Below, piece after piece: positions 6,462-49,751 of a stretch of DNA of 64,000 bases. Within the stretch, counting starts at the first letter, position 1. Every line of letters begins with the position of its first letter. Both the position numbers and the translations under genes were made by a program. The notes below the pieces were generated by a model. It was not told where the DNA came from, did no database searches, and worked only from the letters and a program-made list of their open reading frames with translations. The DNA comes from Hydnum rufescens UP504 (lineage: Eukaryota; Basidiomycota; Agaricomycetes; Cantharellales; Hydnaceae), in NCBI GenBank assembly GCA_014904985.1, contig MU128909.1:361714-425713 (forward strand), in the 5' to 3' direction.

Positions 6462-8072
6462 CTACCACCTGTTTGGGTCGACGTCAGAATCCTCAGTTGC
6501 TGGATTGGATGGGAGGTCTGCGAGCTCATAAGGGGCTGCTGGGTCTTTCTTGAATTCAGCCCATTCATTGTCTAGGAGGTCATATTGGATATCATGTATG
6601 TGCCTAGTGTAGTAAAGAACTGCTTGATTGTCAGGCATGATTGTTAGAAAGGAGGTGTCCATTTCACAGAGGGATGATGCAAGCTGGGATATTGTGGGGG
6701 CGATATGATGATGGAGGGCAAAGACTGCAGAAGGCATGTCTAACCTATGATGTTGTCATATAATATCGGCTGCATGGATAAAGATATGGGATAGTCTGTC
6801 AGTCTGTGATACGTGATGACATGCTGAAGGATAGAGAAGATGATTACACCAGTTAGTGATGCATTCTTCATCACGGGCTAACTTGATGTCATGATTGTTG
6901 AGTATCTTGGATTTTGTTTCGAGGTTGGCCTCTCACTGATGAAGAGTGGATGAGAGAAGCGCAAGGGGCGGCATGAGAGAATTGATTTGCATGTTATGAT
7001 TGGCAACCATGTGACTTAGCTGGTCAAGAAGATCCACATGTTGCTTTACATCCTCATAACACTTGTCTTCATATTCTCGTTGGACCTCATCTAGTCATTG
7101 CACAGCATTGCGCTTGTGATCTACAATTGCTTGTCTGTACAAAGGCTATGCATGATATGAGTTGGCGTTTTTGCTGGGTTGTGGGATACTGATTGGTCAC
7201 TTATAAAAGTTGCAAGGAGCATGAGGAGGGAGTTTTGACAAATAAGATAGATAGGATGAGAGACAGGATGATGGATGAGAAGAGTTTGTTGAGTTCGAAG
7301 TGAGTGAATCTGTGGAGGAGTGGAATATTTTGTGTAGTTGCTGAGTGGTTGGAGACCTAGTTTGACTTGTGGTTTCTTTCTTGGCAGCCTGATTCGTCTC
7401 GAGTTCTTGTCATAACACAAATAGGTCACCTACAGTCATATCAGGAGGGAATGATTTGAGAGGAATCGCCGTTTGAACAGATGATGGCAGTTGTGAGTTG
7501 AAAGCATGTCCAGTTTCAGGGTTCTTCAGTTGATCTTCTGCATCATTTTGTTTAGCCTTTTGTTTGGTTATGAGATGGTCAGAGAATGATGTGGTGGACT
7601 GAACTGGTCTGGGACGTGGATTGGCAGTCTGATGGTGTAACGTGAGATGCAGGTCAAGTGCAAAATGGATGTTGGAGCCTACAGGTTGGCTGGGGTTAGA
7701 CTGTTCATCGTTATTGTATGTTTTTACAATTTGGTTCGAAGATGAATTGATAGAATCAGGCCAGAAACTCTGTGTTGTGTTAGTATTATATGGGTGTGTC
7801 GATGTAGATGTTTGTACCTCATCCAACTCATCTTTTTCCTTTGGTGAAGAGCTAAAGAGAATATCCTCACCGAGTTTGAGTTCAGTTAGCTGCATAGGAG
7901 GCACAGGTGAAGGAGCAGGCATGTTGATATACTGGAATGTGTAGTTGGGAGTCGAGGTCGCAGTGAGGTCAAGTGAGGCTGAGTTGGACATAGTGAAGAC
8001 TGTAGAGTAGTTCAGATGATGGTTGGCTGGTGCTTTTGTTAGCAGATTGTCTGTGCTTTTTATACCTGTCAT
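6462..8072 (-). pseudogene. Decayed post-pol coding region E2 of element D, coiled-coil-like
   Basis: One reading frame runs about 535 codons from the Met at 8072 to PATEDSDVDPNRW at 6462. The N-terminal 220 codons are open and rich in Ser/Thr/Asn/Pro. The rest contains TGA at 7410-7412 and at least four other in-frame stops, mostly TGA. It includes charged helical sequence such as QREYEDKCYEDVKQHVDLLD and LETKSKILNNHDIKLARDEE. No known domain is recognised. The position and strand suggest an accessory ORF of element D; a captured host fragment is the alternative. Confidence 0.45.
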
Positions 8073-8488
8073 TATCAGCTGTGCCTGAGTTTGATGACTC
8101 GTTTTTCATTGTGGGACAGAAGTTCTAAGCGAAATCAGACGATAGCTAGCCAGTGGAGTCATCCTTAGGTTGTCATGTGAAGTGTTGTTCATAGATACGA
8201 GTGGACTGAAAGAAAAGAAAAAGAGAAAGCGATAAGCGATAATTTACATGATTTAAGTTATGGGGAAGCAGGAGGAGGTGATTGTTGACAGTGGTGATTA
8301 TCTAGACATTGCGGAAGGAGGATGAGGGCAAGGGGACACTAATTTTGCAGTGCGGTCTTCTTTTTAAAAGCAGTAGCATCGATTTTTCATGGCACAGCAC
8401 ATTCCATGACTCAATGCCTCATGGCCCAAGGGTGACAATCACAGGATTTTCTTAGTCCCACATTGTTGGAATGATCTCAGATTTGTAT
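8073..8488. other. Spacer upstream of E2, nothing recognised
   Basis: No open frame, repeat or structure stands out. It ends at the target duplication of the large fold-back element. Confidence 0.4.
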
Positions 8489-8496
8489 GGTTACCA
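8489..8496. repeat. 8-bp target site duplication GGTTACCA, left
   Basis: GGTTACCA is directly repeated at 13806-13813 with no mismatch. It flanks the fold-back element exactly at its CAG/TTG ends. An 8-bp duplication is typical of hAT transposases. Confidence 0.85.
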
Positions 8497-8569
8497 CAGC
8501 CTGGTCAGCCAATTATCGGTATCTAACTAGATACTTCAAGGGTTGCATTTATATGCTCTAACTAGATAT

Positions 8570-8655
8570 CAGACCCAGGGGGCCCCCAGGGGCCCCTGCA
8601 ATTCAGTCGAGGGGGCCGGTCAAGCAGCCCAGGGGCCCCTGGGGCCCCTAGCCAT
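8570..8655. repeat. GGGGCCCC-rich subterminal hairpins, left end
   Basis: Short inverted repeats CAGGGGGCCCCCAGGGGCCCCTG and AGGGGCCCCTGGGGCCCCT sit about 75-150 bases inside the terminus. Counterparts lie at 13664-13715 in the right end and at 24750-24820 in the lone terminus. GGGCCC hairpins also occur near the ends of the other two family members. Confidence 0.7.
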
Positions 8656-8810
8656 TAGGATTATTTATTTATTATTTATTCATTTATTTATTATTATTAT
8701 ATACACTAGGCTCGCCCAGTGGGGCTCACCCATGCACCCAAGAAGAGCAGCCAGAGGCTGCTCTTCTTGCGCAATGTAGCTAAGGAAAATAAATACCAGG
8801 GGGGACTCAC
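8648..8810 (-). other. Intron/hairpin unit L5 (atypical)
   Basis: On the minus strand GTGAGT at 8810-8805 could be a donor, with a possible branch TCCTAATGG and CTAG acceptor at 8651-8648. Hairpin A' is at 8739-8769 with stem AAGAAGAGCAGCC/GGCTGCTCTTCTT. This variant of the usual GCAAAAAGAGCAGC has compensated bases. No hairpin B precedes the donor. It is longer (163 nt) than its neighbours and lies at the outer edge of the array. Confidence 0.4.
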
Positions 8811-8967
8811 CATATATAGGGCCACTCGTTGGGCGCGTTCGGTTCTCGTCTGGTGAATTGCCGTTTGTCGCGTCGCCGTTTGGCGTGTTGCTGTCCATTG
8901 CGTCGCCCTTTGGTGTGTTGCCATTTGGGCCCTTGTTCATTTTGCGGGTTTTCATTGTGGCCACAAT

Positions 8968-9074
8968 CTAGAGTAATAAAAGATATATTAGTACAAATAT
9001 CCAAAGCAGCGCAAAAAGAGCAGCTTTCGCTGCTCTTTTTGCGCGGGTGTAGCTACTGGGGTGCGGGGACTCAC
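8968..9074 (-). other. Intron/hairpin unit L4
   Basis: Minus strand: donor GTGAGT at 9074-9069, hairpin A at 9009-9044 (GCGCAAAAAGAGCAGC stem), branch-like TACTAATAT, acceptor CTAG at 8971-8968; 107 nt. Hairpin B (9083-9116) has a 15-bp perfect stem GTACCACACACCCGC and ends 8 nt before the donor. Confidence 0.65.
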
Positions 9075-9296
9075 CTTAAATCGTACCACACACCCGCTAC
9101 GGCGGGTGTGTGGTACCTGGGGTCCTCATTTGGCGCGTTTGCGTGTCTCACGTTGGTGCGTGTCGCGTTGGTGCGTGTTGCGTGTTGCGTGTTGTGTGTT
9201 GCGTGTTGTGTGTCGCGTGTCGTGTTGGCGCGTGTCGCATTATGGCTCGGTCCCTCGTTGTTTCGTGGGTTTTCGTCGTGTCTTGGACAAGTCAAC

Positions 9297-9412
9297 CTAG
9301 AATAATAAACGAATCGTTAGTATGAATATTCAAAGCAACGCAAAAAGAGCAGCTCATGCTGCTCTTTTTGCACCACAAGAATCAGAAATAAAAAATAAAA
9401 ATAAAAACTTAC
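9297..9412 (-). other. Intron/hairpin unit L3
   Basis: Minus strand: donor GTAAGT at 9412-9407, hairpin A at 9340-9371, branch TACTAACG, acceptor TTCTAG ending at 9297; 116 nt. Hairpin B at 9421-9450 has the changed stem ACCCTACA.../...TGTAGGGT, with both sides altered relative to the other units. Confidence 0.65.
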
Positions 9413-9570
9413 CTTGGAGCACCCTACAACCGCTGTGGCGGGTGTAGGGTACTGGGAGCGCGGACTCCGGCTCGTACGTACGGGTTCTCCCTGTGCCCCG
9501 TCGTTCGGGCGTCAATAAGGGGGGTACGGGGGGTTCTGCGTCGGTATTGGTTCGCGAGAATGGTTAATAC

Positions 9571-9676
9571 CTATAAAATAATATTGTTAAATTAGTTAAA
9601 AATTAAACACCATGCAAAAAGAGCAGCTTTCGCTGCTCTTTTTGCGTGGTTGTAGCTACTGGGGGTGGGGACTCAC
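9571..9676 (-). other. Intron/hairpin unit L2
   Basis: Minus strand: donor GTGAGT at 9676-9671, hairpin A at 9614-9645, branch-like TTAACTAAT, acceptor TTATAG ending at 9571; 106 nt. Hairpin B at 9686-9717 is slightly eroded on one side. Confidence 0.6.
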
Positions 9677-9999
9677 CTTATATGGGACCACACACCCGCC
9701 GTGGCGGGTGTGTGATTCCTGGGGCCCTCATTTGGCGTGGTCGCGTCCTCGTTTGGCGCGTTGCCGTGGGTCACGTCCCCATTTGACGTGGTGCCGTATT
9801 TCGCATCGTTGCCGCGTTGCTGTGGGTCGTGTCCTCTTTCGGCGCAGTGCCGTATCTCGCGTCGTTGCCGCGTCGCGTCCTCATTTGGTGTGCTGCCGTA
9901 TTTCACGCGTTGGCCCCTTGCTGTGGGTCGCGTGTCGGGCTGCCGTTTGGGTTCTCGTTATTTCACGGGCTATCGTCGTGTGTTGAACGAAGCCTCAAT

Positions 10000-10104
10000 C
10001 TAGAATAATTAAAGTCGCGTTAGTAAAGAGTTTCAAAGCAGCGCAAAAAGAGCAGCTTTCGCTGCTCTTTTTGTGCCGTCGTACCTACTAGCAGAAAAAC
10101 TCAC
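10000..10104 (-). other. Intron/hairpin unit L1
   Basis: Minus strand: donor GTGAGT at 10104-10099, hairpin A at 10041-10076, branch TACTAACGC (plus 10019-10025), acceptor TTCTAG ending at 10000; 105 nt. Hairpin B (10111-10140) ends 6 nt before the donor. The exon upstream opens with the central-palindrome ORF starting at 10284. Confidence 0.65.
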
Positions 10105-10284
10105 CTTATGACCACACACCCGCGGTGGCGGGTGTGTGGTCGCGCGCTTGCCTTTCCAGGCGGTTGTTTGTTGTGGTTTCGGAGATGAGAAGAAAGATCC
10201 GAAATTCAACGCCGGCAATTGCCGATACTCAAGAAGCGCCCAAGTGCTGACGCTACAAGCACAATACAGATTGATAGCAAGCAT
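10105..10284 (-). CDS. Short ORF/first exon on left arm, leader shared with right arm
   Basis: From the ATG at 10284 the frame stays open for exactly 60 codons to the predicted donor at 10104. The first part reads MLAINLYCACSVSTWALLEY, followed by RQLPALNF, and the exon ends in the Hairpin B codons PPPRVCGHK. The right arm starts with the same leader at 10767 because it lies in the palindrome. After splicing, the next exon hits a stop within about ten codons, so any peptide would be about 70 residues. It may be chance coding in a structured RNA. No family is recognised. Confidence 0.3.
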
Positions 10285-10862
10285 GTAGATGTGGAATATA
10301 GAATATACAATAAATAATTGTTTAAAAATGTGAAGAAGAGGATAAAAATGAGCCAGAGCTCAATAAGGGACGATATGCCTCATTGCAAAGTGGATTAGAT
10401 CACTTCTATGCATCAGAATTGGCCCAAATTTAAATATAGTGATGGTATATATATACCCTACATGGGAAACCAATTATATCAGACGATTCTGGCATTTTCT
10501 ATTTTTCACGCCTTCAATTCCCTAAATAGGGAATTGAAGGCGTGAAAAATAGAAAAATGCCAGAATCGTCTGATATAATTGGTTTCCCATGTAGGGTATA
10601 TATATACCATCACTATATTTAAATTTGGCCAATTCTGATGCATAGAAGTGATCTAATCCACTTTGCAATGAGGCATATCGTCCCTTATTGAGCTCTGGCT
10701 CATTTTTATCCTCTTCTTCACATTTTTAAACAATTATTTATTGTATATTCTATATTCCACATCTACATGCTTGCTATCAATCTGTATTGTGCTTGTAGCA
10801 TCAGCACTTGGGCGCTTCTTGAGTATCGGCAATTGCCGGCGTTGAATTTCGCAACTACGCAG
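10190..10862. repeat. Near-perfect central palindrome (arms about 335 bp)
   Basis: The symmetry centre is at 10525/10526 (CCTAAATAGG). Sequence from about 10196 to 10525 is repeated in reverse complement to about 10855 with only a few differences, one being GACGC/GATGC at a CpG. Each half contains a GGTATATATATACC motif (about 10445-10458 and 10593-10606) and the start of an outward ORF, so it could act as a bidirectional promoter. The region would extrude a very long hairpin in single strands. Confidence 0.9.
10440..10612. promoter_or_regulatory. Mirrored TATA-like motifs at palindrome centre
   Basis: TATATATA lies at about 10447-10454 and again at about 10597-10604, mirrored about the centre. 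Each is about 165 bases upstream of an outward ATG (10284 minus, 10767 plus). Promoter function is inferred from the symmetric spacing only. Confidence 0.35.
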
Positions 10863-10971
10863 CCACACCCAGCAACAGAAGGACGACGACGACGATCCCA
10901 CAACCGGACGACAACGACGACCCCACAACCACACGACCACACACCCGCTGCTGCGGGTGTGTGGTCATAAG
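10767..10971 (+). CDS. Short ORF/first exon on right arm
   Basis: The ATG at 10767 begins the same leader as the left arm (MLAINLYCACSISTWALLEY). The frame then becomes a basic, low-complexity stretch and ends HTPAAAGVWS inside hairpin B, with a TAA at 10968-10970 just before the predicted donor at 10972. A 67-residue product is possible. The HTPAAAGVW tail simply reflects translation of the hairpin B stem and recurs in several units. Coding status is doubtful. Confidence 0.3.
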
Positions 10972-11072
10972 GTGAGTTTTGTCAGTAGATACAATAGCGC
11001 AAAAAGAGTAGCACAAGCTACTCTTTTTGCGCCACTTTGAACTCTTATACTAACATAGCTTTATTATTTTAG
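10972..11072 (+). other. Intron/hairpin unit R1
   Basis: Donor GTGAGT at 10972, hairpin A at 10997-11032 with paired change GAGTAGC/GCTACTC, branch TACTAACAT at about 11049, acceptor TTTTAG at 11072; 101 nt. Hairpin B (10935-10966) ends 5 nt before the donor. Confidence 0.7.
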
Positions 11073-11212
11073 ATTATGGCCTAAGGCCCAAGACGAAAAC
11101 CCACCGCACGATGAGGGCCCGAACGGCAAGAGCCAAACCAAAAGAAACGACGGAGCGCCAATGGGTGGCCCCAGGAACCACACCCGCTGCGGCGGGTGTG
11201 GTACTATTTAAG

Positions 11213-11321
11213 GTGAGTGTTGCCCCCCCCCCAATAGATACAGTCGCGCAAAAAGACCAGCGAAAGCTGGTCTTTTTGCGCTGAATTATAACCTTAACTA
11301 ACATATATTTTGATATTCTAG
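11213..11321 (+). other. Intron/hairpin unit R2
   Basis: Donor GTGAGT at 11213, hairpin A at 11246-11281 with paired change GACCAGC/GCTGGTC, branch CTAACATA, acceptor TTCTAG at 11321; 109 nt. Hairpin B (11177-11202) is shortened equally on both sides (ACCACACCCGC/GCGGGTGTGGT). The exon (11073-11212) is 140 nt. Confidence 0.7.
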
Positions 11322-11458
11322 GTCACGCTTTGAACCACCATCCACACGAGCACCAACCGAAACTACACCAAGTGAAAACCCGACGAACACCCCACCGAAC
11401 CGATAAACCAACGCAAACCAGACACCCGCCACAGCGGGTGTCTGGTTATACATTCAAG

Positions 11459-11551
11459 GTATGTGTCCCAACGGCGCAAAAAGAGCAGCGAAAGCTGCTC
11501 TTTTTGCGCTACTTTGAATTTCTTTACTGATTCCTTTTTAATTCATTCTAG
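11459..11551 (+). other. Intron/hairpin unit R3
   Basis: Donor GTATGT at 11459, hairpin A at 11474-11509 (perfect 16-bp stem), branch-like TACTGATT, acceptor TTCTAG at 11551; 93 nt. Hairpin B (11416-11447) has the paired change CCAGACACCCGC/GCGGGTGTCTGG. The exon (11322-11458) is 137 nt. Confidence 0.7.
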
Positions 11552-11716
11552 GCCATCAAATGAAACCCCCCCAAACGATGAGGCCAATCAGCCAGGGCCC
11601 CAGCGGCACACGCAAACAGAAACCACGCGAAACGAAAACGCGAGACGTGGCCATGGACCACCCGAGTGGCCGTGCGAACCACACACCCGCTGCGGCGGTG
11701 TGTGGTTCTATACAAG

Positions 11717-11809
11717 GTAAGTGTACCCCCAATGGCGCAAAAAGAGCAGCAAATGCTGCTCTTTTTGCGCTGGTTTTAATTTATCTAACTAATACATCCG
11801 TTATTCTAG
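11717..11809 (+). other. Intron/hairpin unit R4
   Basis: Donor GTAAGT at 11717, hairpin A at 11735-11770, branch TCTAACTAAT, acceptor TTCTAG at 11809; 93 nt. Hairpin B at 11684-11709 has lost one G of the GCGGG side. The exon (11552-11716) is 165 nt. Confidence 0.7.
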
Positions 11810-11960
11810 GCTGCCACAAATGAAGATCGGCGAAACGAAACCCCTCTGAAACGATAACCCGCCGCAAAGTTGAACGAGCCGTCACACAAACAAAAAACGA
11901 GATGCGCCAACCCCGGACCGAACCACACCACCCGCAGAAGCGGTGTGTGGTAATTTCAAG

Positions 11961-12058
11961 GTAACGGTACGATCACACAAAAGGAGCAGCGCACGCTGCT
12001 CCTTTGCGTGGCTTTCTGTTTTTTTTTTCTCTCTTTCATTAACATTATTTATCTCTAG
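11961..12058 (+). other. Intron/hairpin unit R5
   Basis: Donor GTAACG at 11961, hairpin A at 11975-12010 with the AAAGGAGCAGC form matched by GCTGCTCCTTT, branch CATTAACAT, acceptor CTCTAG at 12058; 98 nt. Hairpin B at 11922-11950 is imperfect. Confidence 0.6.
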
Positions 12059-12280
12059 GCTTTAATCTCAGCCTACAAACCCCGTCAACCCCCAAATAAA
12101 GACCCACCACCCCGCCGAAGACACCTGCGAGAATGGTGACCCACCCGCCAGACGAACCCACGAGAACGGAAACCCGCCAACCCCTAAGTGATGACCAGCC
12201 CCCGTACAAGTACGAACCACGCGACGCGGTACCAAATAGTACCACATACCCACTTAGGTGGGTGTGTGGTACTACAAAGG

Positions 12281-12372
12281 GTTTTTTTTTTAATTTCGAT
12301 ATCTTCAACGATGCGAAGGGAGCAGCACAAGCTGCTCCTTTTGCGTCACTTCGAATTTTTTTTACTAACTAG
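12281..12372 (+). other. Intron/hairpin unit R6
   Basis: The donor is eroded (GTTTTT at 12281). Hairpin A is at 12311-12347 (GGAGCAGC/GCTGCTCC) and TACTAACTAG merges branch and acceptor at 12372. Hairpin B (12241-12270) shows the paired change CCCAC/GTGGG in place of CCCGC/GCGGG. Confidence 0.5.
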
Positions 12373-12484
12373 GATTCAAATGGAAGGACCCAAAATGCAA
12401 CCCGTGCCCCACGCTCAACGGTGAAGTACCAAGCCATGCCCCCGGTACCACACACCCGCCCAAGCGGGTGTGTGGTGCTACTAG

Positions 12485-12594
12485 GTATTTTTTTTTGGAA
12501 TTTCTATACGTACAGCGATGCAAAAGGAGCAGCGCAAGCTGCTCCTTTTGCGTGCCTTCGAATTTTTATTTATTAATGTATGGTATTATTGTAG
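12485..12594 (+). other. Intron/hairpin unit R7
   Basis: Donor GTATTT at 12485, hairpin A at 12520-12551 (GCAAAAGGAGCAGC/GCTGCTCCTTTTGC), branch TATTAATG, acceptor TTGTAG at 12594; 110 nt. Hairpin B is at 12445-12478. This is the last unit before the assembly gap. Confidence 0.6.
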
Positions 12595-12641
12595 AATCCA
12601 AGCCGGAGCGCCCAAAACGACGACCCACCCCAACAGCAACC

Positions 12642-12666
12642 NNNNNNNNNNNNNNNNNNNNNNNNN
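12642..12666. other. 25-base assembly gap
   Basis: Run of N. The sequence after it (12667 to about 13340) is a degraded direct copy of about 12010-12641, which suggests that two ends of the same locus were not merged. Confidence 0.9.
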
Positions 12667-13340
12667 ACAAGAGAGGACCCGGATGCGCCATTTGGATGGA
12701 CTCTGTTTTTTATTTTTTTCTCTCTCTTTCATTAACATATTTTATCATTAGGAACTTATATACTCACTACGCAAAACCCGTCACAATCCGCAACACACCC
12801 CACCACAGCACCGAGCACCTGCCGAGAAGTCTGGTACCATCACCCGCCAGGACGACAACCAGACAACGAACCGCCAACACATACAGTGAATGACCAGCCC
12901 GTATCAAGTACGACCACGGCGACCAGCGGTTACGCTCACACATAGTACCACATAACAAAATCACCCCAACTATACGTGCGTAGTGTGAGAGGCCGGGAGG
13001 GGATACTTACAAAGCGAGATTATTTTTTCTTAATTTTGACTCAACGATGCGAGGGCGACAGCTTTTGCACATGTCGAATTTTTTTTACTAACCTAGGACT
13101 TCAACATGGAAAGACCCAAAAACTGCAACCCGTGCAAACAGCGCTCACGGTGACGTCACAACACGCCCAAATGCCACGGCTACCACACAACCCCGCAAGC
13201 GGGTTGTGCTGTGTCACTATCATACAGCACCTGCCTCATATCGTGATGTATATGTAGAACCAAGCCGGGCGCCCAAACGACGACTCCAACGCCCACACAC
13301 CTGTCCAAGCGGGTGTGTGGTGCTACTAGATAGTTTTTTT
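12667..13340 (+). repeat. Degraded direct copy of units R5-R7
   Basis: Landmarks recur in the same order with many small insertions and deletions: CTCTCTTTCATTAACAT, CATCACCCGCCAGGACGA against CACCCGCCAGACGA, TCAACGATGCGA and TACTAACCTAGGACTTCAA. Hairpins A and B are broken in this copy. It could be true duplication plus decay, but the indel-rich pattern next to a gap favours poor-quality unmerged contig ends. Confidence 0.6.
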
Positions 13341-13805
13341 TTTAAATTTCTATGGATGGTACCACACAAGCGGGTGTGGTAAGTAGTTTGGATTTCTACA
13401 GACAGTACCACACCCCAGTGGGTGTGGTGAATTTTTAAATAAATAAATAAATAAATAATACAGTAAGAATGAAACATGGAAATGCCGAATGAAACCCTGC
13501 TGACTGGGGGTAGCAGTGATAATAAATAAATAAATAATCATAAATGGAACATATTATCCCGGACAAGCATGTATGGCCCACTGTGCAAGTCTGAGATTAG
13601 GTGACTGAAGAAGGCACCTAACCCAATATATTGAAGTTCTGTGGCCAGTCTAAGTCCCACACAGGGGCCCCTGGGGGCCCCTGCCTTGATCACGGAAATC
13701 AGGTTAGCCGGCCCCAGGGCCCCAGCATCAAAACCTCTAGTTAGACTATATAAATGCAAGGCTCATAATATCTAACTAGACCTACATTTGTGGCTGACTG
13801 AGTTG

Positions 13806-13813
13806 GGTTACCA
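13806..13813. repeat. 8-bp target site duplication GGTTACCA, right
   Basis: Exact partner of 8489-8496, directly after the GAGTTG end of the fold-back element. Confidence 0.85.
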
Positions 13814-13884
13814 ATAATTTTTGTTATGTGGCTTTAGTCAAAATAATTTCAGGGATTTCCTTTTTAAGACTTAAATTTGCATAT

Positions 13885-15294
13885 CTAGACTTTCTTCAGA
13901 TGACCCGTAATAAGATTCAGTGATTTGGGGTTCTTCTGTGTGATTCCTAGAATTTCTTGAAGAATGTTCTGTCGCCTCCACTCCACTAATTTGTCTTCCC
14001 AATACCCCCATGAATCTGTGGCTCTCAGAGGTGGCCAAAGATAGCTACTTAATTGATTTTCCAGTCCAAGGGATACTGGTGGATGTTGTTTCTTGATAAT
14101 AATATCTCTGTTGAACCTCATTGCATGTCCTGTATTTTTTGTGTATTTTTGTGTATTTTCTTGAATTGATCCTTCATCTATGGCACTGTGGCTCTCATTG
14201 CCAGCAACGTCCATTGTGGCTATATGGTCACACATATGATATTTTTTTAAACGATTTCTGGCAAACATTCCATTGATTAGTGTCCCATCTAATTCTTCTA
14301 GTTGATAGGATCCACAGGGATGGTGATGCCTAACCTGGTATGGTCCAATCCACCGTACCTCCCCCTTTCATCCATGTTGCATTAGTAATACAGAATTGAA
14401 CACCAATACAATTTCACCCAGTTGGTAATCCCTGTTTACTAGTACATTTTCATTTCGTTTTGCGTAATCCTGAGCACTCCGGATTCTTGCTTGAAGAACA
14501 TCATTTGAAGCAGTTTGAATGTCTTTGTCGTAATGTGCTAATTGTATTCTGTGGATAGCTAATAATTCTTCTGTAGTTCAGACTGCACCCCATTTTAATG
14601 TATACCATGATGCATCCATAATATCGAATGGAAACACATGATGTTTTCCATAGAGTAGGTAATAGGGGGTATGACCAGTCATCCACTTTACTGTTACTCA
14701 GTCTGCCCACATACATGAATAAAAATATTTCAACCATTGGCTCGGATTTCCTTTACTAGCAAGAAATAATGAATTTATCCAGGTCCTATGACTGTGTTCT
14801 ATCATTCCATTTGCTTCCAGGTGATATGGGGCAGCTCAGACAATTGGTACATTGTATTCATCTGCCATGGTTTGGACTAATCCATTGAATTCTGTGCTGT
14901 TGTCCATAGTGATTTGTAATACACAGCTGAACTGGCACATGACATCTTCAAATAGAAACCTGGTGACGTTCTTACTTGAGGCCTTACATAACATTTTTGC
15001 TTCCAGCCATCCGGAGAGATCATCCCAGAGATCGATGATGTATTTGAATCTGTTAGACACTGGCATGTGGACCATGTCCATGTTAAATTTATGTAATATT
15101 GTATTAACATAGGTTGGGCTCAATGTGATTTTTGGGCGGGTTACGGATCTTTGCTGGCACTCATGGCATATCCGGCAATACCAGGCCACATAAGATAACA
15201 TATTAGGCCAGTAAAATCTGTCTGATAATTTTTTGAATGTCAGGTCTCGTCCGCGATGACCAGATTCGTCATGTGCTGCCTTACATAAGCAGGC
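13885..15294 (-). pseudogene. Element D integrase, decayed
   Basis: The path opens near HDESGHRGRDLTFKKLSDRFYW, the zinc-binding region with CHECQQRS. It continues through the catalytic core with TMDNSTEFNG (second Asp) and ANGMIEHSHRT (Glu), typical of a retroviral-type integrase. The C-terminal part reads LGEIVLVFNS... GEVRWIGPYQVRHHHPCGSY and ends in a 120-residue tail at 13885. In-frame TGA interrupts it at least five times: after NPDD at 15295, after NVPIV near 14836, after CMWAD, after WGAV and after MQHG. No TAA or TAG is needed to read it. There is no chromodomain like those of A-C. It inserted D cDNA in the past and cannot function now. Confidence 0.85.
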
Positions 15295-16539
15295 TCAATC
15301 ATCTGGGTTTTTGATAACTTTCAGTGGCAATTGACCAGTTTTAGGCCTTCTCCATAGGGTTTCTTGATACAAAAAATAATGTTTGGTAGTCTGAATAAAT
15401 GTTTTGGTGTTCTTGACTCCTGAGGGCATTTTTAAGTGGTTTAAATAATATTCAATCCTTTTCCAATAGTCTTCTCCATCAGAATCTTTGAGTTTGTGTG
15501 GATGTTCTTTGAATTTTGAGTCAATCTCTGAATGTTGTGATACTGTATTGAAATTTCTTTGAGTTACTGAGTGGGCTTGGCATGAAGGAGCTACAAATCC
15601 ACCATTTCTTGACATATTCTCTTGTGGTTTGAGTGATATTACTGTGTTATTTTGTCTGAATTCAATGATGTCTTCATATGGTTCCCTTTTAATCTTTGTA
15701 GCTGATAGTATGGCTGCTGAGGAATCATGCAGAGTCCAGTCTTCATATTCTTCTAGGGATTGTGGTCCAGGAATATAATTTCCGAGTTCATCTAGTTCAT
15801 TCACTAAATTTTCTGAATCATTTTTATGTCCTGAATGTTTTGACAATTCCTCTGGTTTTGTTTCTGAGACAAGGATCCAGTCTTCATATTCTTCATGAGG
15901 TCTTGGCCCAGTAATAAAATGGCCTGGTTCATCTGGCTCCAGTTCATCTTCTGATTCAATTGAGTCATTTTCATGTGCTGGGTGCCTAGATAATCCATCT
16001 GGACCTTGGTGTTTTGTGGCTGGAACATGGACCAATTCAAAATCAAATAGCTGAATGTAGGAGATCCATCGTGACATAGCCGCATTTGGTAATCCTGGTG
16101 TATTAATGGTTTGCTTGAGAAATTTGACATCTACTTCCACTCTAAAATGGATTCCCCAAAGATCATTCCTTTGTGCTTTGAGTGCTTTGAATAGTCCTTT
16201 TAATTCAATTTGTGGCTGGGAATACTTGGTTTCAGCTTCATTATTGGTCACTGACCCAAAGACAATTGGATGACATCCATCTTCCAGGGTTTGATATTCA
16301 ATCCATCCTACTGCCATGATAGAGCTATCCACTGCAAGCATTACAAGGCCATAATCTGATGTTTGTTCATCTTCTTTTAACACTCTGGCTATATCAATGT
16401 TTAATGTTTTTCGAGCAGGAAGGTTTGTAGAAGCTTCTTTTAATTGGTTCATGGCTTCTTCTGCTTGGTCATTCCATTCAAATTCATTATGAGTCTTCTT
16501 GGTGAGCAATGTGAGAGGTTTTGCTATTTTAGCAAATTG
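15295..16539 (-). pseudogene. Element D RNase H and connecting region
   Basis: An open stretch of 404 codons encodes the RNase H part of pol. It opens with LTKKTHNEFEWNDQAEEAMN, a usual start of the tether. AVDSSIMAVGWIEYQ carries the expected Asp, and a Glu region follows at ETKYSQPQIELKGLFKAL. The segment VDVKFLKQTINTPGLPNAAM and the C-terminal HQGPDGLSRHP match the RNase H/tether of Ty3 polyproteins. An acidic linker (ESEDELEPDEPGHF, repeated in part) leads to the integrase. A TGA at 16552 separates it from RT. Confidence 0.85.
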
Positions 16540-18099
16540 CCAAATCCAATTTCAAGCAACTCCAACTGTTCCTAGAAATCCGTGGACTTGTGTTACATTG
16601 GTTGGATGTGGCCAGTTCTTTATTTTTGTGATAATTCCATGGTGAGGTCTTCTTCCTTCCATTGAACAAACATTTCCTACAATGTGTACAAGGGGTGTTG
16701 CAAGCACTAATTTACATCCTGAGGCTGTACATCCAGCTTCAATGAATGTAGTGAATAATTCATCAATGACTTGAGTGAATTCCCATATGTATCGTTGAAT
16801 TTTTGGATTTTCAGGTATAGGTTCATCATTGTACCACATTTTTGGCCCTTTTCCTGCTACATCATCCACAAAGGCTTCAGCTCTGTCTGGGATCATTGGT
16901 CTGATCATGTGTGTGACTGTTTTCATGAATTCTTGCATAGAGTTTGTGTATCCTTGGGGCAGTGTTGTGAGCTTCACAGGACCCAATGGTGAATTGCTTG
17001 TTGTGAGTTCCTGGGATTCTTCTGCCAGTTGTTGTCCATCATATCCTGCATAGAGATCCACGACAATATAGACTGAGTGTCCCACAAAGCTGTCTGCAAA
17101 GTCATTGATATTTGGTGGCAATCCTGAGTCTTTTACTGAAACTGCATTTAGGGGTTGTAGATCATGAACAATGTGAATGCCTCCTTTAGGCTTAGCCACT
17201 GCAAACATTTGTGAATGATAGGAAGACCATGATGTTTTGTATTTCCCAGCTGCTAATTGATCCTTAATCATCTTGATAAGTGTAGCCACAATTGCTTTTG
17301 GAGGTCGAATTGGTGGTAATTCCCAAGGAACATGTGGAACTGTTTCCATAATGTAGTCTGGAAAGTATTCTGTTTTGAAGATCCCTCATTCTGATTCATC
17401 AAATGCAAGACCCTTTTCTCTTTGAGTGACCACATAGAGAAGCAAATCAAGTTCTTCTTCTGAAAGAAAATCATTGGGAATGTTGTCAATTATTTTCTTG
17501 ATGCATTCAGGGGTAAGCTTCTTGGTGTATTGAAAGTCTTTGAAGCTAGGTGGATGCATTGGAAGTAGGAGAGGTGTGATGGGAGGAAGATCTTTATAGG
17601 GAAGACAAATGACTGGGTTTCAAATGACTCCCAAGGGAATAGGGTTTTTCTTCTTATCCACAGTTTTATATTTTATCTTATTGGCATTTCTGATGACCTG
17701 GCCAATTCAATAGCTAAAGTCCTCCACTTTTTCTGGAGATTTTTCTGCAAAATCTGGTCTTAATTCATTATAAATGCATACAAGATTGTCTTCAAGCTGA
17801 TTCCCAGATGTTGCTGAAGATGATTTCCAAGTTTGATTGAGATATTGTGCAGACATGCTGTCCTTGTTGATAATAGCATCTATTAGGTACTTGTTTGTGC
17901 TTGGATCAAAATCTTTTGTACATGTTTCTGGGAGTCATAAGACCTCTGACAATTCCCATTTAATGATTGGTCAGATGGAGTTGCTTCTGTGTGATAATAT
18001 TTGTAGGTTTGTGAGGGAGTTTCAGGTACTGTTCAAACTAATGATGCTCCATTTGATTTATATCAATATTGCGGCTGTGGTGGACCTGAATTGCTTCCT
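16540..18099 (-). pseudogene. Element D reverse transcriptase, decayed
   Basis: The RT frame starts upstream of 17489, with in-frame TGA near 17388 (FDESE*GIF). Clear motifs are FAVAKPKGGIHIVHDLQPLN, VYIVVDLYAGYDGQ (first catalytic Asp), TTLPQGYTNSMQEF, and FVDDVAGKGP, the YxDD box as FVDD. The thumb and connection follow (HIVGNVCSMEGRRPHHGIIT, KIKNWPHPTNVTQVHGFLG). The region upstream of about 17650 is more broken. The RT type resembles a fungal Ty3 lineage with the extended pre-RT segment FLSEEELDLLLYVVTQREKG. Confidence 0.85.
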
Positions 18100-41251: not shown

Positions 41252-43142
41252 TCTGGGAGCTCGCTCACCTACTGTGCTGCATCCATAGATCTGGAAGCAT
41301 CACCCACTAAGTGGCAGGAGATCCCCCTCTATGACTCCATGCCCCACGAATCTACCACTCCAACGCCGAACCCGTGCAATCGCTTTGCCACGTTCTTGCA
41401 GAGGGTCTCAACTCTGGGAGGGGATTTGCGGATGCGCTGTGGACCCCCTCAAAATGGAGCCCAATAGCCAGAAGAGACCCTATTGGGAAATTCATGGGCT
41501 ATGACCTACCGACCTCCCTCGCATGTGCTCACCCCTCACAAACTACCTCATAGGGCAAGTGAACACAGCTGAAGGAGGAATAGAATCTCAGGGGCCTACT
41601 TGGGATGCAGTCATGGACACACCAGCTTTGCCAGCCCCTGGCATATCTAGGGCGCATGATTACTATGCAAGCATGGTCAAGGCCATCCCGTTCTCCCTCT
41701 CTGGTGCGCTAGCTACTTGCATGCCCACTACTCTCACCTCCCCAGGCCCATCTAGCAACCCTACCCCCTCACAAGGTCGAACATCACACCAACCCGGCTT
41801 GCTGAACAAGGGAGCTCCAAGGGTAAGGGCCCTCCCCCACCACCTTCACGCCCCAACAGTCTGGAGGGAGGTGGCAACAGACCTCCTGGAGGAGGAGGCA
41901 ATGGGGAGAACCAGGAGGCGGAGGAGGTGACCCCCACAAGGAGGCTCAGGCACAAGAGACCCTCCTAGTGGAGGGTTTCCGGGACCCAATGGTCCCTCTG
42001 GTCCTCCGGGTCCCCCTGGCCCACCGGGACTGCCTGGACCACCAGGATTTCAAGGAGCCATAGGTGGAGCCCCCTCCCAGGGAATTACATGGGACAACTG
42101 CATCAAGTGGTCACCAGTGCCTGAGTGGGATGGTGACCCTGACACAGTGATCAATTGGCTCTACAAGTGTAATGACCTCACAGGCCTAAGCCCCGAGCTG
42201 GAGAGCCAAATGCCCAAAGTCGCCACAACCTGGTTCAAAGGCACCATCACAACGGCTTGGCAAGCCCATTCATACCCAGTAAGGCACACTATCCTCCAAT
42301 CCTGGGACAATGTATGCAAATGGGTCCTGCACCATTATCTAGGACAAGCATGGTATACGGCCCAGCATATTAAATACAACGAGGTCTTCCATAGTGTAGA
42401 TCACCTGGATGAGTTGCCTGCTGAATATATACAGCCGCGTATCCTCCTCTCCCGCATCTTCCTCAGATTCATGCCCAATAGCCCCGAGGAGACTGCTTCA
42501 GTAATGAACAACGCCCCCACAGAATGGGATGTAGTTCTTCGATGGAGCAACAGACCCCCAATTGAATCGGTCCTCATGTATGCCAAACAGTTCAAGCCGA
42601 CATTAGTAATGCAGTGGAAGTCCTTGCAGCACTATCGTCATCGCCTCGAATCAAAAAACCCTAAAAGGGCCAACTTCGTCTCCCAGGACAATGAAGAAGA
42701 GAGAAGAGATGAAGAATCCGTACACTCCCCCTTTGAGGACAACTCCGAAGGAGCGTTCCAATACTCGAGCGATGAAAAGGAAGGAGGCCAGGCCTCGTCA
42801 AACACCTTTAATGTGAATAAACACTCAAGCCACCCATCCTATCACTCACAGATGCACTTTCAGCCCAAAAGCAAAGCTGCAGACAGTGTCGAGAAAATGT
42901 ATCCGTACCCTCGTGATGACACTGTAGCTAGTCATCACAAACCTGGCCAGAAGTGTTTTGCATGTGGAAGTGAGAAACATTGGGTCAGGGACTGTAAATA
43001 CTTCAGAGCATATTCTAATCGATTGGAAAGGAAAACATTGAAGAAAGAGCATAGACAATATGAGACCCCTGACTATAAAGCTGCATACTCAGCAATGATC
43101 GACACTATGCCGAATTTTCAGAGCCAGGATGGGCAAAATTAG
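41252..43142 (+). pseudogene. Element B gag
   Basis: The N-terminal part is broken by frame changes (open piece 41523-41930 with Pro/Gly-rich end). A collagen-like run of Gly-X-Y triplets (GPNGPSGPPGPPGPPGLPGP) at about 41980-42050 leads in frame into ITWDNCIKWSPVPEWDGDPD. The capsid part reads VATTWFKGTITTAWQAHSYP, ... RILLSRIFLRFMPNSPEETA and MYAKQFKPTLVMQWKSLQHY. The zinc knuckle CFACGSEKHWVRDC (CX2CX4HX4C) is intact, and the stop is at 43140-43142. Pro/Gly linkers of this type are common in gag proteins of mushroom chromoviruses. Confidence 0.85.
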
Positions 43143-43324
43143 CTTCCCTGCCTAGCTCCCATGTACCTTAGCAGAAGCCCTCATACATAGAGGCACATAA
43201 TGAACTTTTGCATAATGTAAATGTAATGACAAATAACATGCAGCCTCCTCCCCCTGTAAAAACTCCCTGGAAGTGACCTAGGAAACCACCTGATGAGTTA
43301 GTTGAAGACGAACAGCAGGAAGAA

Positions 43325-43930
43325 GTGCGAAAACTCGCTGCTGCAGCCATGAAGTCATTGCCCATAGTAGAGGCTTCATACCACCCTGAGACGACACAGG
43401 ATGCCCCTCCAGTGAGGGTTATTCGCTGTCATAAAGCTAGAACCATGCCTGCCGGAAAGTCAGCGCTGGGGATTACAGCGCTAAGTGTACACAATGGCCA
43501 TTTAGGGACACTCTCGAGTTCCCCCATACAGTTATGCCTGGACTCGGGGGCGGACATCACCTTAATTTCGGAAGACTGCTACAATGCTCTAGAGCGTCAG
43601 CCAAAACTACAAAAGGGTATGAAGCTTCGTCTCTTCGAACTCACCAACCAGGTGAAGATCTTAGGATTTATAAACCTTCAAATCTTCATGCCCACAGCAG
43701 ATGATAGAGTGCTGGAATTCATCGAAGAAGCTTATGTGATCCCAGGAATGAACATCCCCATGCTGTTAGGGGAGGACTTCCAGGTCAACTACGAAATATC
43801 TGTACTGAGATCAGCACAAGGAACGCACCTGTTGATCAACCAGCCAGGGGAAAGGTTTGACATGCCAGCCCACTCGACTTCCCCTCAACCGAGGATTTCC
43901 AAGTTCGACCTCGTCACCCCCCAGAGATAA
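43325..43930 (+). CDS. Element B retropepsin (protease)
   Basis: 201 codons open. LCLDSGADITLISEDCYNAL is the aspartic protease active site (DSGA). VKILGFINLQIFMPTADDRV supplies the second strand and NIPMLLGEDFQVNYEISVLR the hydrophobic-Gly motif that ends the fold. It would process gag-pol. The frame ends at 43930 with a shift into the next segment. The 180 bases between gag and this frame contain stops and no clear domain. Confidence 0.85.
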   Translation: MRKLAAAAMKSLPIVEASYHPETTQDAPPVRVIRCHKARTMPAGKSALGITALSVHNGHLGTLSSSPIQLCLDSGADITLISEDCYNALERQPKLQKGMKLRLFELTNQVKILGFINLQIFMPTADDRVLEFIEEAYVIPGMNIPMLLGEDFQVNYEISVLRSAQGTHLLINQPGERFDMPAHSTSPQPRISKFDLVTPQR

Positions 43931-44235
43931 GAAATCACGCCACATACTTGGCCGCTTCCAGAAACCCCGGCTACATGCAGAAAAGCAGGACTCCCATGAT
44001 GTGCTTACTGCGAGCAGTGGCAGACATGAAGATTCGTGCGGGATGGGTTGCCAGGGTTCCTGTAGAAGGCCCAACTACGGGTTGGGATGAGTGGTTCATG
44101 GAGCGAGTCACACTCCCCATGAACAATGGTTGCTTCCTAGCAGCTCCATCGACACTGATTAAATCTGAGAAGCCCACAGTAGCCGTAGCCAACACATCCC
44201 CTTCCACAGAATGGATCAGGAAGGGCCACCTGATG
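43931..44235 (+). pseudogene. Element B PR-RT linker
   Basis: In a shifted frame the conserved linker reads LLRAVADMKIRAGWVARVPV, EGPTTGWDEWFMERVTLPMN and SEKPTVAVANTSPSTEWIRK, ending GHLM, where the palindromic element interrupts. It resumes at 47769 with MGWKGNILGILHNLECYLDS. Confidence 0.75.
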
Positions 44236-44490
44236 CTGTAGACTTATTGCATCACATACGGTAACTTACCACAAGTTTTTTGCATCAATTACGGTAAGTT
44301 ACCGTTACCGCGTTTTGATGCATCAGGTCAGCTGTTGCATCAGAGCTGTGGCAACCCTAGGCATTTTAATATCAGCCAATGGCTCAGTTGGGTTCTTAAT
44401 GGATTTGCATCCAATCATTTCCTATTTAGGATAATTTCCATACTGGGTTTGGGGTCACTAAAAATATTATATAATGATTCCTAAATGGTA

Positions 44491-46028
44491 TCCAGTTACA
44501 TAATACACTGATTCCTATTGAAAAAAAGCCTAAATGCGGAAATTAAATGAACTACATCCAAGAAAATTTTCCCCATCCAGCCCAATGGGGGCCCAGGACC
44601 AGGGGGTGGTGCCTGGGATGGATGGATGGACCCCTAGGGACCCTGATACAGTGAAAAAACCAGGCCCAGGGCCACTGGTTAGTGCCTGAAACAATGAGAA
44701 CAGTAAAAACAGCACCGGAACCACCGGAAGTTAAGCGCTGGGCGGACGTGTCTGAAATTTGGCACATGATTAGAGACTATTAGGGCGCAAATCATATAAA
44801 AATTTCAGCCCAATCCATGCATTACCTATGGAGATATGAGCCAAACAAGTTTGGACATTAAAAATTGATTTCCTCCCCCATAAAATAGCTAGAGACTTGA
44901 AAATTCACACAGACTATGACATCATTATAAAGTAATTAGGTGCCAAAAATCAGCCCAATCCATGCACTTAAAGAGGGGGAACTGGGCAGGGGGACCAGAA
45001 CCACCGGAAGATGCCAGAAAATAAGCACTGGGTGGACGTGTCTGAAATTTGGCACATACTAGGAGGCCATTGGTACGCAAATCATATCAAAATTTCAGCC
45101 AAATCCATGCATTACTTATGGAGATATGAGCCAAACAGGTTTGAACATTGAAAATTGATTTACTCCCCCTACAGTCACGATATGAACTTGAAATTTTACA
45201 CAGAGTATATTCATATAATGGACTAAATATATGCCAAAAATCAGCCCAATCAGTTGAGTTTGAGACATTCAACTCCCTTGGCAGGCAGAAAAGAGGAACA
45301 ACCCCACCATAAATGTGAATCACCCCACACTGGGCCCAAAATAGGTGGAATTGACCTGTAATATTATGATACATACTATATCCAAAAATGGAATGAATTG
45401 GATGTGTGGAAGTGGCTGAAATTGAGGGGGGAGGGGAAGGATAATCAAAAGTGAATTACACAAGATGTAGAGCAGGCATGGATCTGATCTCAGGCCACTA
45501 GTGTAATATGTATATGGGGAGCTCATATACCAAATATCAGCCTAACAGAGAAGAGATAATTTACTTTATAATGACTCATACTCTGTGTAAATTTTCAAGT
45601 CCCCAGCTATTTTATGGGGGGAGAAAATCAATGTTTAATGTCCAGAACTTGTTTGGCTCATATCTCCATAAGTAATGCATGGATTGGGCTGAAATTTTTA
45701 TATGATTTGCGATCCTAATAGTCTCTAATCATGTGCCAAATTTCAGACCATGTCCACCCAGCGCTTAATTCCGGCAACTTCCGGTGGTTCTGGTGCTGTT
45801 TTTACTGTTCTCATTGTTTCAGGCACTAACCAGTGGCCCTGGGCCTGGTTTTTTCACTGTATCAGGGTCCCTAGGGGTCCATCCATCCATCCCAGGCACC
45901 ACCCTTCTGGTCCTGGGCCCCCATTGGGCTGGATGGGAAAATTTTCTTGGATGTAGTTCATTTAATTTCCGCATTTAGGCTTTTTTTTCAATAGGAATTA
46001 GTGTATTATGTAACTGGATATTATCAAG
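44491..46028. repeat. Inverted repeat 1 in palindromic element
   Basis: 44491-44770 (ATCCAGTTACATAATACACT onward) is repeated in reverse at 45735-46028. The arms enclose a direct repeat of about 275 bp (44715-44985 and 44997-45240) with the shared block GTGTCTGAAATTTGGCACAT. A reversed third copy lies at 45540-45765. The right arm runs into the N gap. Confidence 0.8.
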
Positions 46029-46040
46029 GTTATTATGGGA

Positions 46041-46769
46041 NNNNNNNNNNNNNNNNNNNNNNNNNNNNNNNNNNNNNNNNNNNNNNNNNNNNNNNNNNNN
46101 NNNNNNNNNNNNNNNNNNNNNNNNNNNNNNNNNNNNNNNNNNNNNNNNNNNNNNNNNNNNNNNNNNNNNNNNNNNNNNNNNNNNNNNNNNNNNNNNNNNN
46201 NNNNNNNNNNNNNNNNNNNNNNNNNNNNNNNNNNNNNNNNNNNNNNNNNNNNNNNNNNNNNNNNNNNNNNNNNNNNNNNNNNNNNNNNNNNNNNNNNNNN
46301 NNNNNNNNNNNNNNNNNNNNNNNNNNNNNNNNNNNNNNNNNNNNNNNNNNNNNNNNNNNNNNNNNNNNNNNNNNNNNNNNNNNNNNNNNNNNNNNNNNNN
46401 NNNNNNNNNNNNNNNNNNNNNNNNNNNNNNNNNNNNNNNNNNNNNNNNNNNNNNNNNNNNNNNNNNNNNNNNNNNNNNNNNNNNNNNNNNNNNNNNNNNN
46501 NNNNNNNNNNNNNNNNNNNNNNNNNNNNNNNNNNNNNNNNNNNNNNNNNNNNNNNNNNNNNNNNNNNNNNNNNNNNNNNNNNNNNNNNNNNNNNNNNNNN
46601 NNNNNNNNNNNNNNNNNNNNNNNNNNNNNNNNNNNNNNNNNNNNNNNNNNNNNNNNNNNNNNNNNNNNNNNNNNNNNNNNNNNNNNNNNNNNNNNNNNNN
46701 NNNNNNNNNNNNNNNNNNNNNNNNNNNNNNNNNNNNNNNNNNNNNNNNNNNNNNNNNNNNNNNNNNNNN
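46041..46769. other. 729-base assembly gap
   Basis: Run of N between the two inverted repeats of the palindromic element. Open frames reported across it are empty. Confidence 0.98.
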
Positions 46770-46989
46770 CAGACTCCATTTAGGCATTGCTCCACATCAT
46801 CCCCCCCTAACTCACAATTTCCTCCCCAGGGCCTTCCATCCATGCATTACCTGAAACTCACAGTTGGCTCATCCAAACACATTCATAACATCCCTCAAAA
46901 TTTCAGATTTCTCACTGCAATGTGAGACCTTGCAGAATATTTTCAAGTTTCACTGTAATACACCTCCAGTGGGGGCACTTCCAGCACTC

Positions 46990-47545
46990 CAATGACTCTG
47001 ATTTTTTTGTAGGCCACACCTGGTCACCATTTGAGGCTCAGGTGAAAAATTTCAGGCCATTCTAAGCACTTCTGGCATTGTCACATGACCCAGATCTTCC
47101 CTCCCCCTGCTTTACTCAGTGATCCAATTTGCATGAACTTTGTGGCCATTTGTAGTAGTAGTAGGTGGCACCCCATGATTCCAATTTGAAGACATTCCAT
47201 GGAATATTCATTGAGTTATTCAAGAACTTCCAGATCAATTCAATTTGAGGTCAGAACCACAGTATTTCCAGTAAATACTGTAAGTTCTGACCTCAAATTG
47301 AATTGATCTGGAATGTTTCTTGAATAACTCAATGAATATTCCATGGAATGTCTTCAAATTGGAATCATGGGGTGCCACCTACTACTACTACAAATGGCCA
47401 CAAAGTTCATGCAAATTGGATCACTGAGTAAAGCAGGGGGAGGGGAAGATCTGGGTCAGTGACCAATGCCAGAAGTGCTTAGAATGGCCTGAAATTTTCA
47501 CCTGAGCCTCAATGGTGACCAGGTGTGGCCTACAAAAAATCAGAG
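46990..47545. repeat. Inverted repeat 2 in palindromic element
   Basis: Near-perfect arms meet at the centre AGTATTTCCAGTAAATACTG (about 47260-47281). Sequence from GACTCTGATTTTTTTGTAGG (about 46995) returns in reverse complement at about 47515-47545. An extra ACTTCCAG and a few single-base differences occur. Confidence 0.85.
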
Positions 47546-47768
47546 TCTTGGTATTATCTAATGCACCCTTCCTTATTGGGCTATCTAATTACCACATTTA
47601 GGGATATTAATATTATAAAATATATATTATTAACTGGAATAATAATAATAGCCTGGATGCAAAAGGTTTAATGAAATGGGGTTACTGTAGCTTGATGCAA
47701 CAGAGTTACCAGGTTTTGATGCAACCCTTCCACAGTAAGTTACCGCGTTTTTTGCAAAATATTTACAG

Positions 47769-49724: not shown

Positions 49725-49751
49725 GCCGCATTCCTATCGACACAAGCGCAG

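Follow-up and report, generated by a model that had tools for sequence, protein, structure and literature searches.

A putative non-autonomous DNA transposon of Hydnum rufescens with two diverging arrays of predicted introns and conserved hairpins

Organization of the Element

The element occupies positions 8497–13805 of a 64,000-nucleotide stretch of Hydnum rufescens UP504 DNA (contig MU128909.1, hereafter the window), and is bordered by the 8-bp target site duplication (TSD) GGTTACCA (Table 1). The right end, read as the reverse complement, begins CAACTCAGTCAGCCA and matches the left end, CAGCCTGGTCAGCCA, imperfectly. A genome-wide search for the ends gave 288 and 304 first-look candidates for the two ends, of which 40 each were scored. 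Seven complete copies are present in the genome, including that of the window, each with its own perfect 8-bp TSD, the sequence of which differs among the six other copies. These copies and duplications bear out an earlier note on this DNA, which had read it as a transposon with two diverging arrays of intron-like units.

The two arrays are separated by a near-perfect palindrome, with an arm identity of 97.2–99.7% and 8–10 gap positions in the seven copies. In L003, a complete copy without N, it measures 654 nt, with 325 paired positions and one mismatch (G-T counted as paired). Five copies of a first hairpin (hairpin A) lie to the left of the palindrome and seven to the right in L003 (the scan tally of 15 at this locus includes three from the flank), and the 12 hairpin-A units of the window copy are likewise divided 5 and 7; the unit scan found 11 or 12 hairpins A in the locus of each other complete copy. 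AATAAA tracts lie close to both element ends, the left sites numbering two in L003 and L007 and five in the remaining copies (seven copies in all).

Positions 12642–13292 of the window copy are missing in the six other complete copies, as judged by length and a break in the matches (by direct alignment for L003 only). This segment is probably an assembly artefact outside the element proper, which measures approximately 4.7 kb and holds 12 intron units. Of the extent proposed in the earlier note, the termini were retained, and the segment within them was probably included in error.

Table 1. Features of the window copy and its borders (positions in the window).
Feature	Position	Strand	Remark
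TSD GGTTACCA, left	8489..8496	.	perfect match to right copy
TSD GGTTACCA, right	13806..13813	.	perfect match to left copy
Left terminal inverted repeat, imperfect, begins CAGCCTGGTCAGCCA	8497..8590	.	inner limit by eye
Right terminal inverted repeat	13710..13805	.	inner limit by eye
AATAAA-rich tract near left-arm end, poly(A)-signal-like in sense	8660..8705	-	7/7 copies
AATAAA-rich tracts near right-arm end	13436..13545	+	7/7 copies
Central near-perfect palindrome, putative divergent promoter region	10200..10851	.	arm comparison
Unit L5, degenerate intron; hairpin A 8735-8773	8648..8810	-	
Intron L4; hairpin A 9009-9044; hairpin B 9085-9114	8968..9074	-	
Intron L3; hairpin A 9335-9376; hairpin B 9421-9450	9297..9412	-	
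Intron L2; hairpin A 9609-9650; hairpin B 9687-9716	9571..9676	-	
Intron L1; hairpin A 10039-10078; hairpin B 10111-10140	10000..10104	-	
Hairpin B of unit R1	10936..10965	+	
Intron R1; hairpin A 10997-11032	10972..11072	+	
Intron R2; hairpin A 11246-11281; shorter hairpin B immediately upstream	11213..11321	+	B by eye; also in L003
Intron R3; hairpin A 11473-11510; hairpin B 11417-11446	11459..11551	+	
Intron R4; hairpin A 11733-11772; hairpin B 11678-11706	11717..11809	+	
Intron R5; hairpin A 11980-12005; donor GTAACG	11961..12058	+	
Unit R6, degenerate; hairpin B 12241-12270; hairpin A 12310-12347	12241..12372	+	
Unit R7, degenerate donor; hairpin B 12447-12476; hairpin A 12518-12553	12447..12594	+	
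N run and apparent noisy repeat of ~12010-12560	12642..13292	.	absent from six other complete copies

Splice Signals Around the Hairpins

The coordinates, the order of the units, the two hairpins and the approximate number of units described earlier were all confirmed. The typical order (hairpin B, donor, hairpin A, branch-like site, acceptor), which recurs in many other copies within the same genome, holds for nine of the 12 window units (L1–L4 and R1–R5, in which AAG precedes the donor and both a branch-like site and an acceptor are present); L5, R6 and R7 are degenerate. The R5 donor, GTAACG in the window copy, is GTAAGT in the seven other copies compared; an automatic donor call at 11943 was discarded, as it falls inside hairpin B.

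Allowing one mismatch, hairpin A occurs at 2,968 places in the genome, and its reversed control at none. An independent set of 310 units was chosen solely by the presence of hairpin B 15–75 nt upstream of hairpin A. Strict donors were found in 220 of these units, compared to 5.9% in shuffles (mean of 20), strict branch sites with YAG in 244 (3.0% in shuffles), and all signals, strict and ordered, in 190 (0.3%), the copies being related and the counts therefore not independent. One or both strict signals are missing in the other 120 units. When the flanks were read in antisense, in windows that differ in length from the sense ones, signals were found in 6/310 and 1/310 units. The linkers, stripped of their hairpins, fall into 85 clusters, of which 44 carry the full signals in half or more of their members and 41 do not; 36 representatives of clusters of two or more have a median identity of 63%, against 56% in shuffles. 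Among 111 look-alike hairpin A cores from 110 prokaryote and viral loci, none had a hairpin B within 100 nt or ordered splice signals. The ordered splice signals around the hairpins are not a chance effect. The introns have a median length of 105 nt and a 5–95% range of 93–127 nt, compared to the 93–116 nt noted earlier.

Alignments A1 and A2 were derived from 301 units in 28 loci, of which 194 were good and 74 diverse, 71 remaining after three were dropped by eye. As the units had been chosen for their splice score, conservation of the splice columns in these alignments was rejected as independent evidence. Among eight close copies, with the window copy limited to its first 4,145 bases, the splice sites at first appeared strongly conserved; this effect was not significant on a retest that left out the ill-defined introns L5 and R7, with R6 below the score cut-off. 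Splice positions varied at 2/144 sites and other intron positions at 20/447 (p = 0.13), or at 1/97 and 4/306 when restricted to A/T sites (p = 1); therefore, the recent copies may be neutral. The idea that the hairpins hold the donor open is unsupported by the predicted mean unpaired probability of the donor, 0.38, a figure with no control value beside it. In a search for intron-less copies, a query of four joined exons gave 792 candidates, 40 of which were scored; among the listed matches, none extends more than approximately 11 bases beyond a junction. Of the 73 junction-spanning matches in the collected loci, four were examined, and none of these is a spliced copy.

Hairpins A and B as Probable RNA Structures

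The loop is four nucleotides long in 299/310 hairpins A and 282/310 hairpins B. Hairpin A loops conform to GNRA in 123 of the 299 cases in sense and in 3 in antisense, and hairpin B loops to UNCG in 49 of 282 and 8, respectively; YNMG loops number 85 in sense and 11 in antisense. The GNRA and YNMG biases are present in close and in divergent families alike. Given the sense-strand GNRA (A) and UNCG (B) loops, both hairpins look selected as RNA. In the 71-row alignment (the same units that were chosen for splice score), 18 of 31 stem pairs have changes on both sides; none of 500 shuffles scored as high on any of five measures and slid partners scored far lower, with the caveat that related sequences can yield such scores without structure. 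The overall wobble excess of hairpin A (142:77) is partly CpG-driven, and the counts were therefore split: for non-CpG changes G-U exceeds A-C in sense in hairpin A (46:21) and in hairpin B (41:11), and for CpG-type changes in hairpin B the ratio is reversed (G-U 71, A-C 106).

The stem core sequences are conserved beyond the needs of pairing, which could also mean DNA recognition. The hairpins might be palindromic DNA sites for a transposase or a host dimeric DNA-binding protein, with the intron signals incidental or secondary. The conserved core around a variable 4-nt spacer is what paired half-sites would produce, and DNA transposons commonly carry subterminal repeat arrays. The sense bias of the loops, the covarying stems and the ordered splice signals in the flanks, in one orientation only, all argue against this reading, which we consider unlikely, though the strongest of the competing explanations.

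The exon junction complex (EJC) lands at position -24 upstream of an exon junction, and this position falls within hairpin B in all 220 donor-bearing units. The genome has matches to Mago_nashi, an EJC core family.

Comparison With Known Mobile Elements and Host Genes

The 8-bp TSD (7/7 complete copies) and short imperfect terminal inverted repeats (TIRs) match those of hAT transposons. The earlier designation as hAT-like is at most tentative, as only the 8-bp TSD and short TIRs fit, and 8-bp TSDs are also made by other superfamilies. A hAT gene on C331 adjoins a 168-bp copy of the element's right end. Other copies of this gene (96% on C142 and C17, and two at 75–76%) match only up to the right-end stretch, so the junction is probably chimeric, and the gene was rejected as proof of an autonomous partner. 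KDZ genes are also abundant in the genome. Non-autonomous hAT-type and foldback transposons share with the element an 8-bp TSD, short TIRs and an inverted-repeat centre; unlike in these, the interior here is an ordered array of exons, introns and hairpins, and no matching transposase was found. As a DNA transposon the carrier is unremarkable; what appears new, on a limited search of the introner literature, is the cargo.

The palindrome, near-perfect in 7/7 copies, could give long double-stranded RNA upon read-through of its 325 bp, making the element an RNAi trigger or decoy with arrays of no further role, and Piwi-domain matches are present in the genome. As this would leave the splice signals, the sense-biased tetraloops and the T-poor exons unexplained, we regard it as improbable.

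Slightly less probable still is an introner-type element, in which every unit would be a mobile intron spreading to genes. Introners and introner-like elements are described as mobile DNA with spliceosomal intron signals (PMC9860276; PMC4457414), some families being DNA-transposon-like, with TSDs and TIRs (PMC9860276). The present element resembles these, and its units carry complete intron signals also when chosen by hairpins alone. It differs from the introners described there in that 12 intron units, with two conserved hairpins and non-coding exons of their own, lie in one 4.7-kb element, and in that the TSDs flank the whole element. Moreover, all five isolated-looking hairpin A matches, a small sample, proved to lie inside arrays and none was single, which leaves the suggestion of an intron-spreading device in the earlier note without support. 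Exon starts look similar between units (by eye), which suggests tandem duplication.

Host genes of snoRNAs such as UHG and GAS5 also have non-coding exons, and each of their introns holds a structured RNA; unlike the RNAs in these, hairpin A is a simple hairpin closed by a tetraloop. Over window positions 8000–14200 no Rfam family reached its gathering score, and a snoRNA host gene is not indicated. The 18 sub-threshold rows are mostly of miRNA type and on the palindrome; the best of them has an E-value of 2.7e-08 and scores 49.7 bits, the cut-off being 86.

Exons and Coding Potential

The exons contain 12.8% T and the introns 36.2%. No conserved reading frame was found after predicted splicing: the longest open reading frame (ORF) of the joined internal exons was no better than in shuffles (32 arms; at the lowest count, 4 of 100 shuffles equalled or exceeded the observed length), exon lengths are out of phase and 35 of 37 exon indels are not a multiple of three. 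Protein-coding exons were therefore rejected, and the earlier prediction of non-coding exons punctuated by hairpin B is supported. A relic of a captured protein-coding gene, multiplied together with its introns, would account for the ordinary spliceosomal kind of the introns and for ORFs of 121–168 aa in 10/32 joined arms, and is about as improbable as an introner, given that these ORFs do not exceed those of dinucleotide shuffles in length at the 1% level and that exon lengths and indels disregard the frame.

A Spliced, Structured Non-coding RNA as the Most Likely Product

The preferred reading, to which we assign a probability of roughly 0.7 on the basis of sequence analysis, is a non-autonomous DNA transposon carrying two divergent, multi-intron, non-coding transcription units that are predicted to be spliced. 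Each half of the palindrome would contain a promoter directed outwards, and transcription of each arm would continue as far as the AATAAA tract close to the end of that arm. From the left-arm transcript the spliceosome would excise as many as five short introns, and from the right-arm transcript as many as seven. This would leave a T-poor, open RNA in which a hairpin B, in many cases with a UNCG loop, lies just 5' of nearly every exon junction; hairpin A, often GNRA-looped, would reduce each intron to an effective length of approximately 67 nt. Among the possibilities raised earlier, a structured non-coding RNA is the best supported, by the tetraloops, the covariation and the lack of a coding signal.

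The most likely function is at the RNA level: hairpins and introns would maintain the splicing and the stability of a selfish non-coding RNA, hairpin B occupying the landing place of the EJC. In a more specific and rather unlikely version, hairpin B, its middle centred on -24, would deny the EJC its landing and thereby protect a non-coding RNA rich in junctions from nonsense-mediated decay, and the GNRA hairpin A would aid or mark splicing, possibly docking on hairpin B across the donor.

The element thus suggests a mobile DNA that may live by a spliced, structured RNA instead of a protein. If its transcripts are spliced, it would be mobile DNA with introns, not exons, as its most conserved content. 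Hairpin A is present at approximately 3,000 places in this single genome of 63 Mb, and the element would then offer a natural, replicated test bed for the action of donor-flanking hairpins on splicing, EJC loading and transposon silencing, and would constitute an added source of introns that bypasses single introners.

Anatomy of the element and its copies

The assembly (63.2 Mb in 539 contigs) contains at least 389 matches to the whole element, fragments included. Among these are seven complete copies (L001–L007), each flanked by a perfect 8-bp duplication that differs from the other six. Six copies are 4,676–4,750 bp long; the window copy measures 5,309 bp, because of a run of N and an apparent noisy repeat reaching position 13292 (Table). 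The absence of this stretch from the six other copies is shown by their length and by match breaks at the same two query positions, with direct alignment over the region for L003, the N-free copy. The extra stretch probably arose in assembly and makes the element look larger than it is. The earlier note placed the element correctly, with the reservation that its right arm includes this probable artefact.

Table. Coordinates of the element, its terminal sequence, and neighboring features in the window.
Feature	Position (window)	Sequence or remark
Element start		CAGCCTGGTCAGCCA; the other end is an imperfect inverted copy of the start
N run	12642–12666	Inside the right arm of the window copy
N run plus an apparent noisy repeat of the ~550 bases before it	12642–13292	Absent from the other six complete copies
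Open frames right of the element	15295–17385, 41931–57307	By eye, LTR retrotransposon (gag-pol) proteins
Long N stretch	near 46050–46760	

At positions 102–268 of locus L037 (G000:C187), a right end is followed by 8 bases and then a left end, corresponding to two elements head to tail that perhaps share a single 8-bp duplication; two palindrome-like stretches lie deeper inside this locus.

No transposase could be linked to the element ends. KDZ transposase genes are abundant, with at least 154 domain matches genome-wide from the best 150 of 584 candidates, many with stop codons, and Mago and Piwi matches are present as well. Judged by its content, the genome resembles that of a mushroom-type fungus. 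At locus L045 (G000:C331:22050–28500) a hAT transposase gene adjoins a 168-bp element right end, and what look by eye like fatty acid synthase fragments lie beside this junction. The arrangement is likely a chimera, and the hAT gene is therefore not taken as proof of a transposase partner; other matches to the gene end before the element right end.

Hairpins and splice signals occur in a fixed order

Read outwards from the palindrome, both arms of L003 show a single order of hairpin B, donor, hairpin A, branch-like site and acceptor, with five hairpins A on the left and seven on the right, which bears out the unit count and order described in the earlier note. To avoid circularity, units were chosen by their hairpins alone, after which the intervening and downstream sequences were inspected. 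From 354 hairpin A cores in 35 loci, we retained 310 with a hairpin B core 15–75 nt to one side; the remaining 44 lacked a hairpin B core on both sides, and no core was flanked by two. A strict donor was present in 220 of the 310 units, a strict branch site with YAG in 244 and both in 190, compared to 5.9, 3.0, and 0.3% in dinucleotide shuffles (20 per unit). Antisense flanks yielded 6/310 and 1/310, in windows that differed in length from those on the sense strand, the donor windows being longer and the acceptor windows shorter. Because the units derive from one another by copying, the 310 cases are not independent; both signals were found in 110/154 units of the close family and 80/156 of the divergent families. 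Linkers without hairpins formed 85 clusters. In 44 of these, half or more of the members carried full signals, and the other 41 fell short of this; the similarity between 36 cluster representatives was barely above that of shuffles. Sequences from elsewhere served as a control: 111 look-alikes of hairpin A, located in 110 prokaryotic or viral stretches, had no nearby hairpin B and no ordered splice signals.

Several observations count against splicing. One or both strict signals are missing from 120 of the 310 units, conservation at splice positions in recent copies is not significantly above that at other intron positions, and the donor is not left open in the predicted fold.

Genome-wide, the hairpin A core (30 places, at most one mismatch) occurs at 2,968 places and hairpin B at 1,969, whereas the reversed patterns of both gave no matches in the same genome. 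With both strands combined, there are 366 occurrences of an exact AAG donor separated by 8–28 bases from the first half of a downstream hairpin A. Five exact hairpin A matches without a neighbor among the matches listed were read out, and each lay inside an array.

The hairpins carry RNA-type loops

Loops of four bases predominate in hairpin A (299/310) and hairpin B (282/310). GNRA loops in hairpin A number 123/299 on the sense strand vs. 3 on the antisense strand; in hairpin B, UNCG loops number 49/282 vs. 8, and the wider YNMG class 85 vs. 11. A further 95 hairpin B loops are such as CpG decay of YNMG-class loops would leave, other origins being possible. The GNRA and YNMG biases are present in close and divergent families alike. 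In an alignment of 71 rows chosen by splice score, both partners changed in 18/31 stem pairs, and not one of 500 shuffles matched any of five covariation measures. Outside CpG contexts, sense G-U exceeds A-C in hairpin A (46:21) and hairpin B (41:11); CpG contexts in hairpin B show the reverse trend (71:106). The exons of eight close copies carry 142 sense C-to-T changes at 568 C sites and 129 G-to-A changes at 399 G sites. The former are not overrepresented, and a sense-strand C-to-T bias therefore does not explain the wobble excess. In our view, the loop sequences argue decisively for selection as RNA over DNA for both hairpins.

The predicted transcript appears non-coding

Joined internal exons of 32 arms contained no frame beyond shuffle expectation at the 1% level (at minimum, 4/100 shuffles reached the observed length), and 35/37 exon indels between close copies are out of frame. 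Sense T content is 12.8% in exons and 36.2% in introns. Positions ~200–565 of locus L160, ahead of a normal intron, lack hairpin B and are not T-poor; this stretch reads like foreign or coding sequence trapped in the array.

Sense AATAAA occurs once inside each right arm and never in the left; in all seven copies it clusters 169–196 bases from the left end and 271–376 from the right end. Its antisense hexamer is present at 2–7 sites per arm, and the contrast thus lies in placement and not merely in number.

The exon after intron R1 (11073–11212) matched more places than the other three exons tested, many at 83–90%, among the matches listed, and could contain a conserved segment of the predicted RNA.

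Position of hairpin B relative to the donor

Hairpin B spans approximately −39 to −9 relative to the donor (medians), ending at −13 to −4 in 90%, which places position −24 within it, as observed in 220/220 donor-bearing units. The hairpin A core starts 18–44 nt past the donor (5–95%), and the median intron length after subtraction of hairpin A is 67.5 nt, a usual size in mushroom-type fungi. That hairpin B is fixed to the donor and hairpin A is not suggests a target for hairpin B at the end of the exon; the exon junction complex is deposited around −24 and avoids double-stranded RNA. The anatomy of the element is firmly established, and the arms are likely to specify a spliced non-coding RNA with hairpins selected as RNA.
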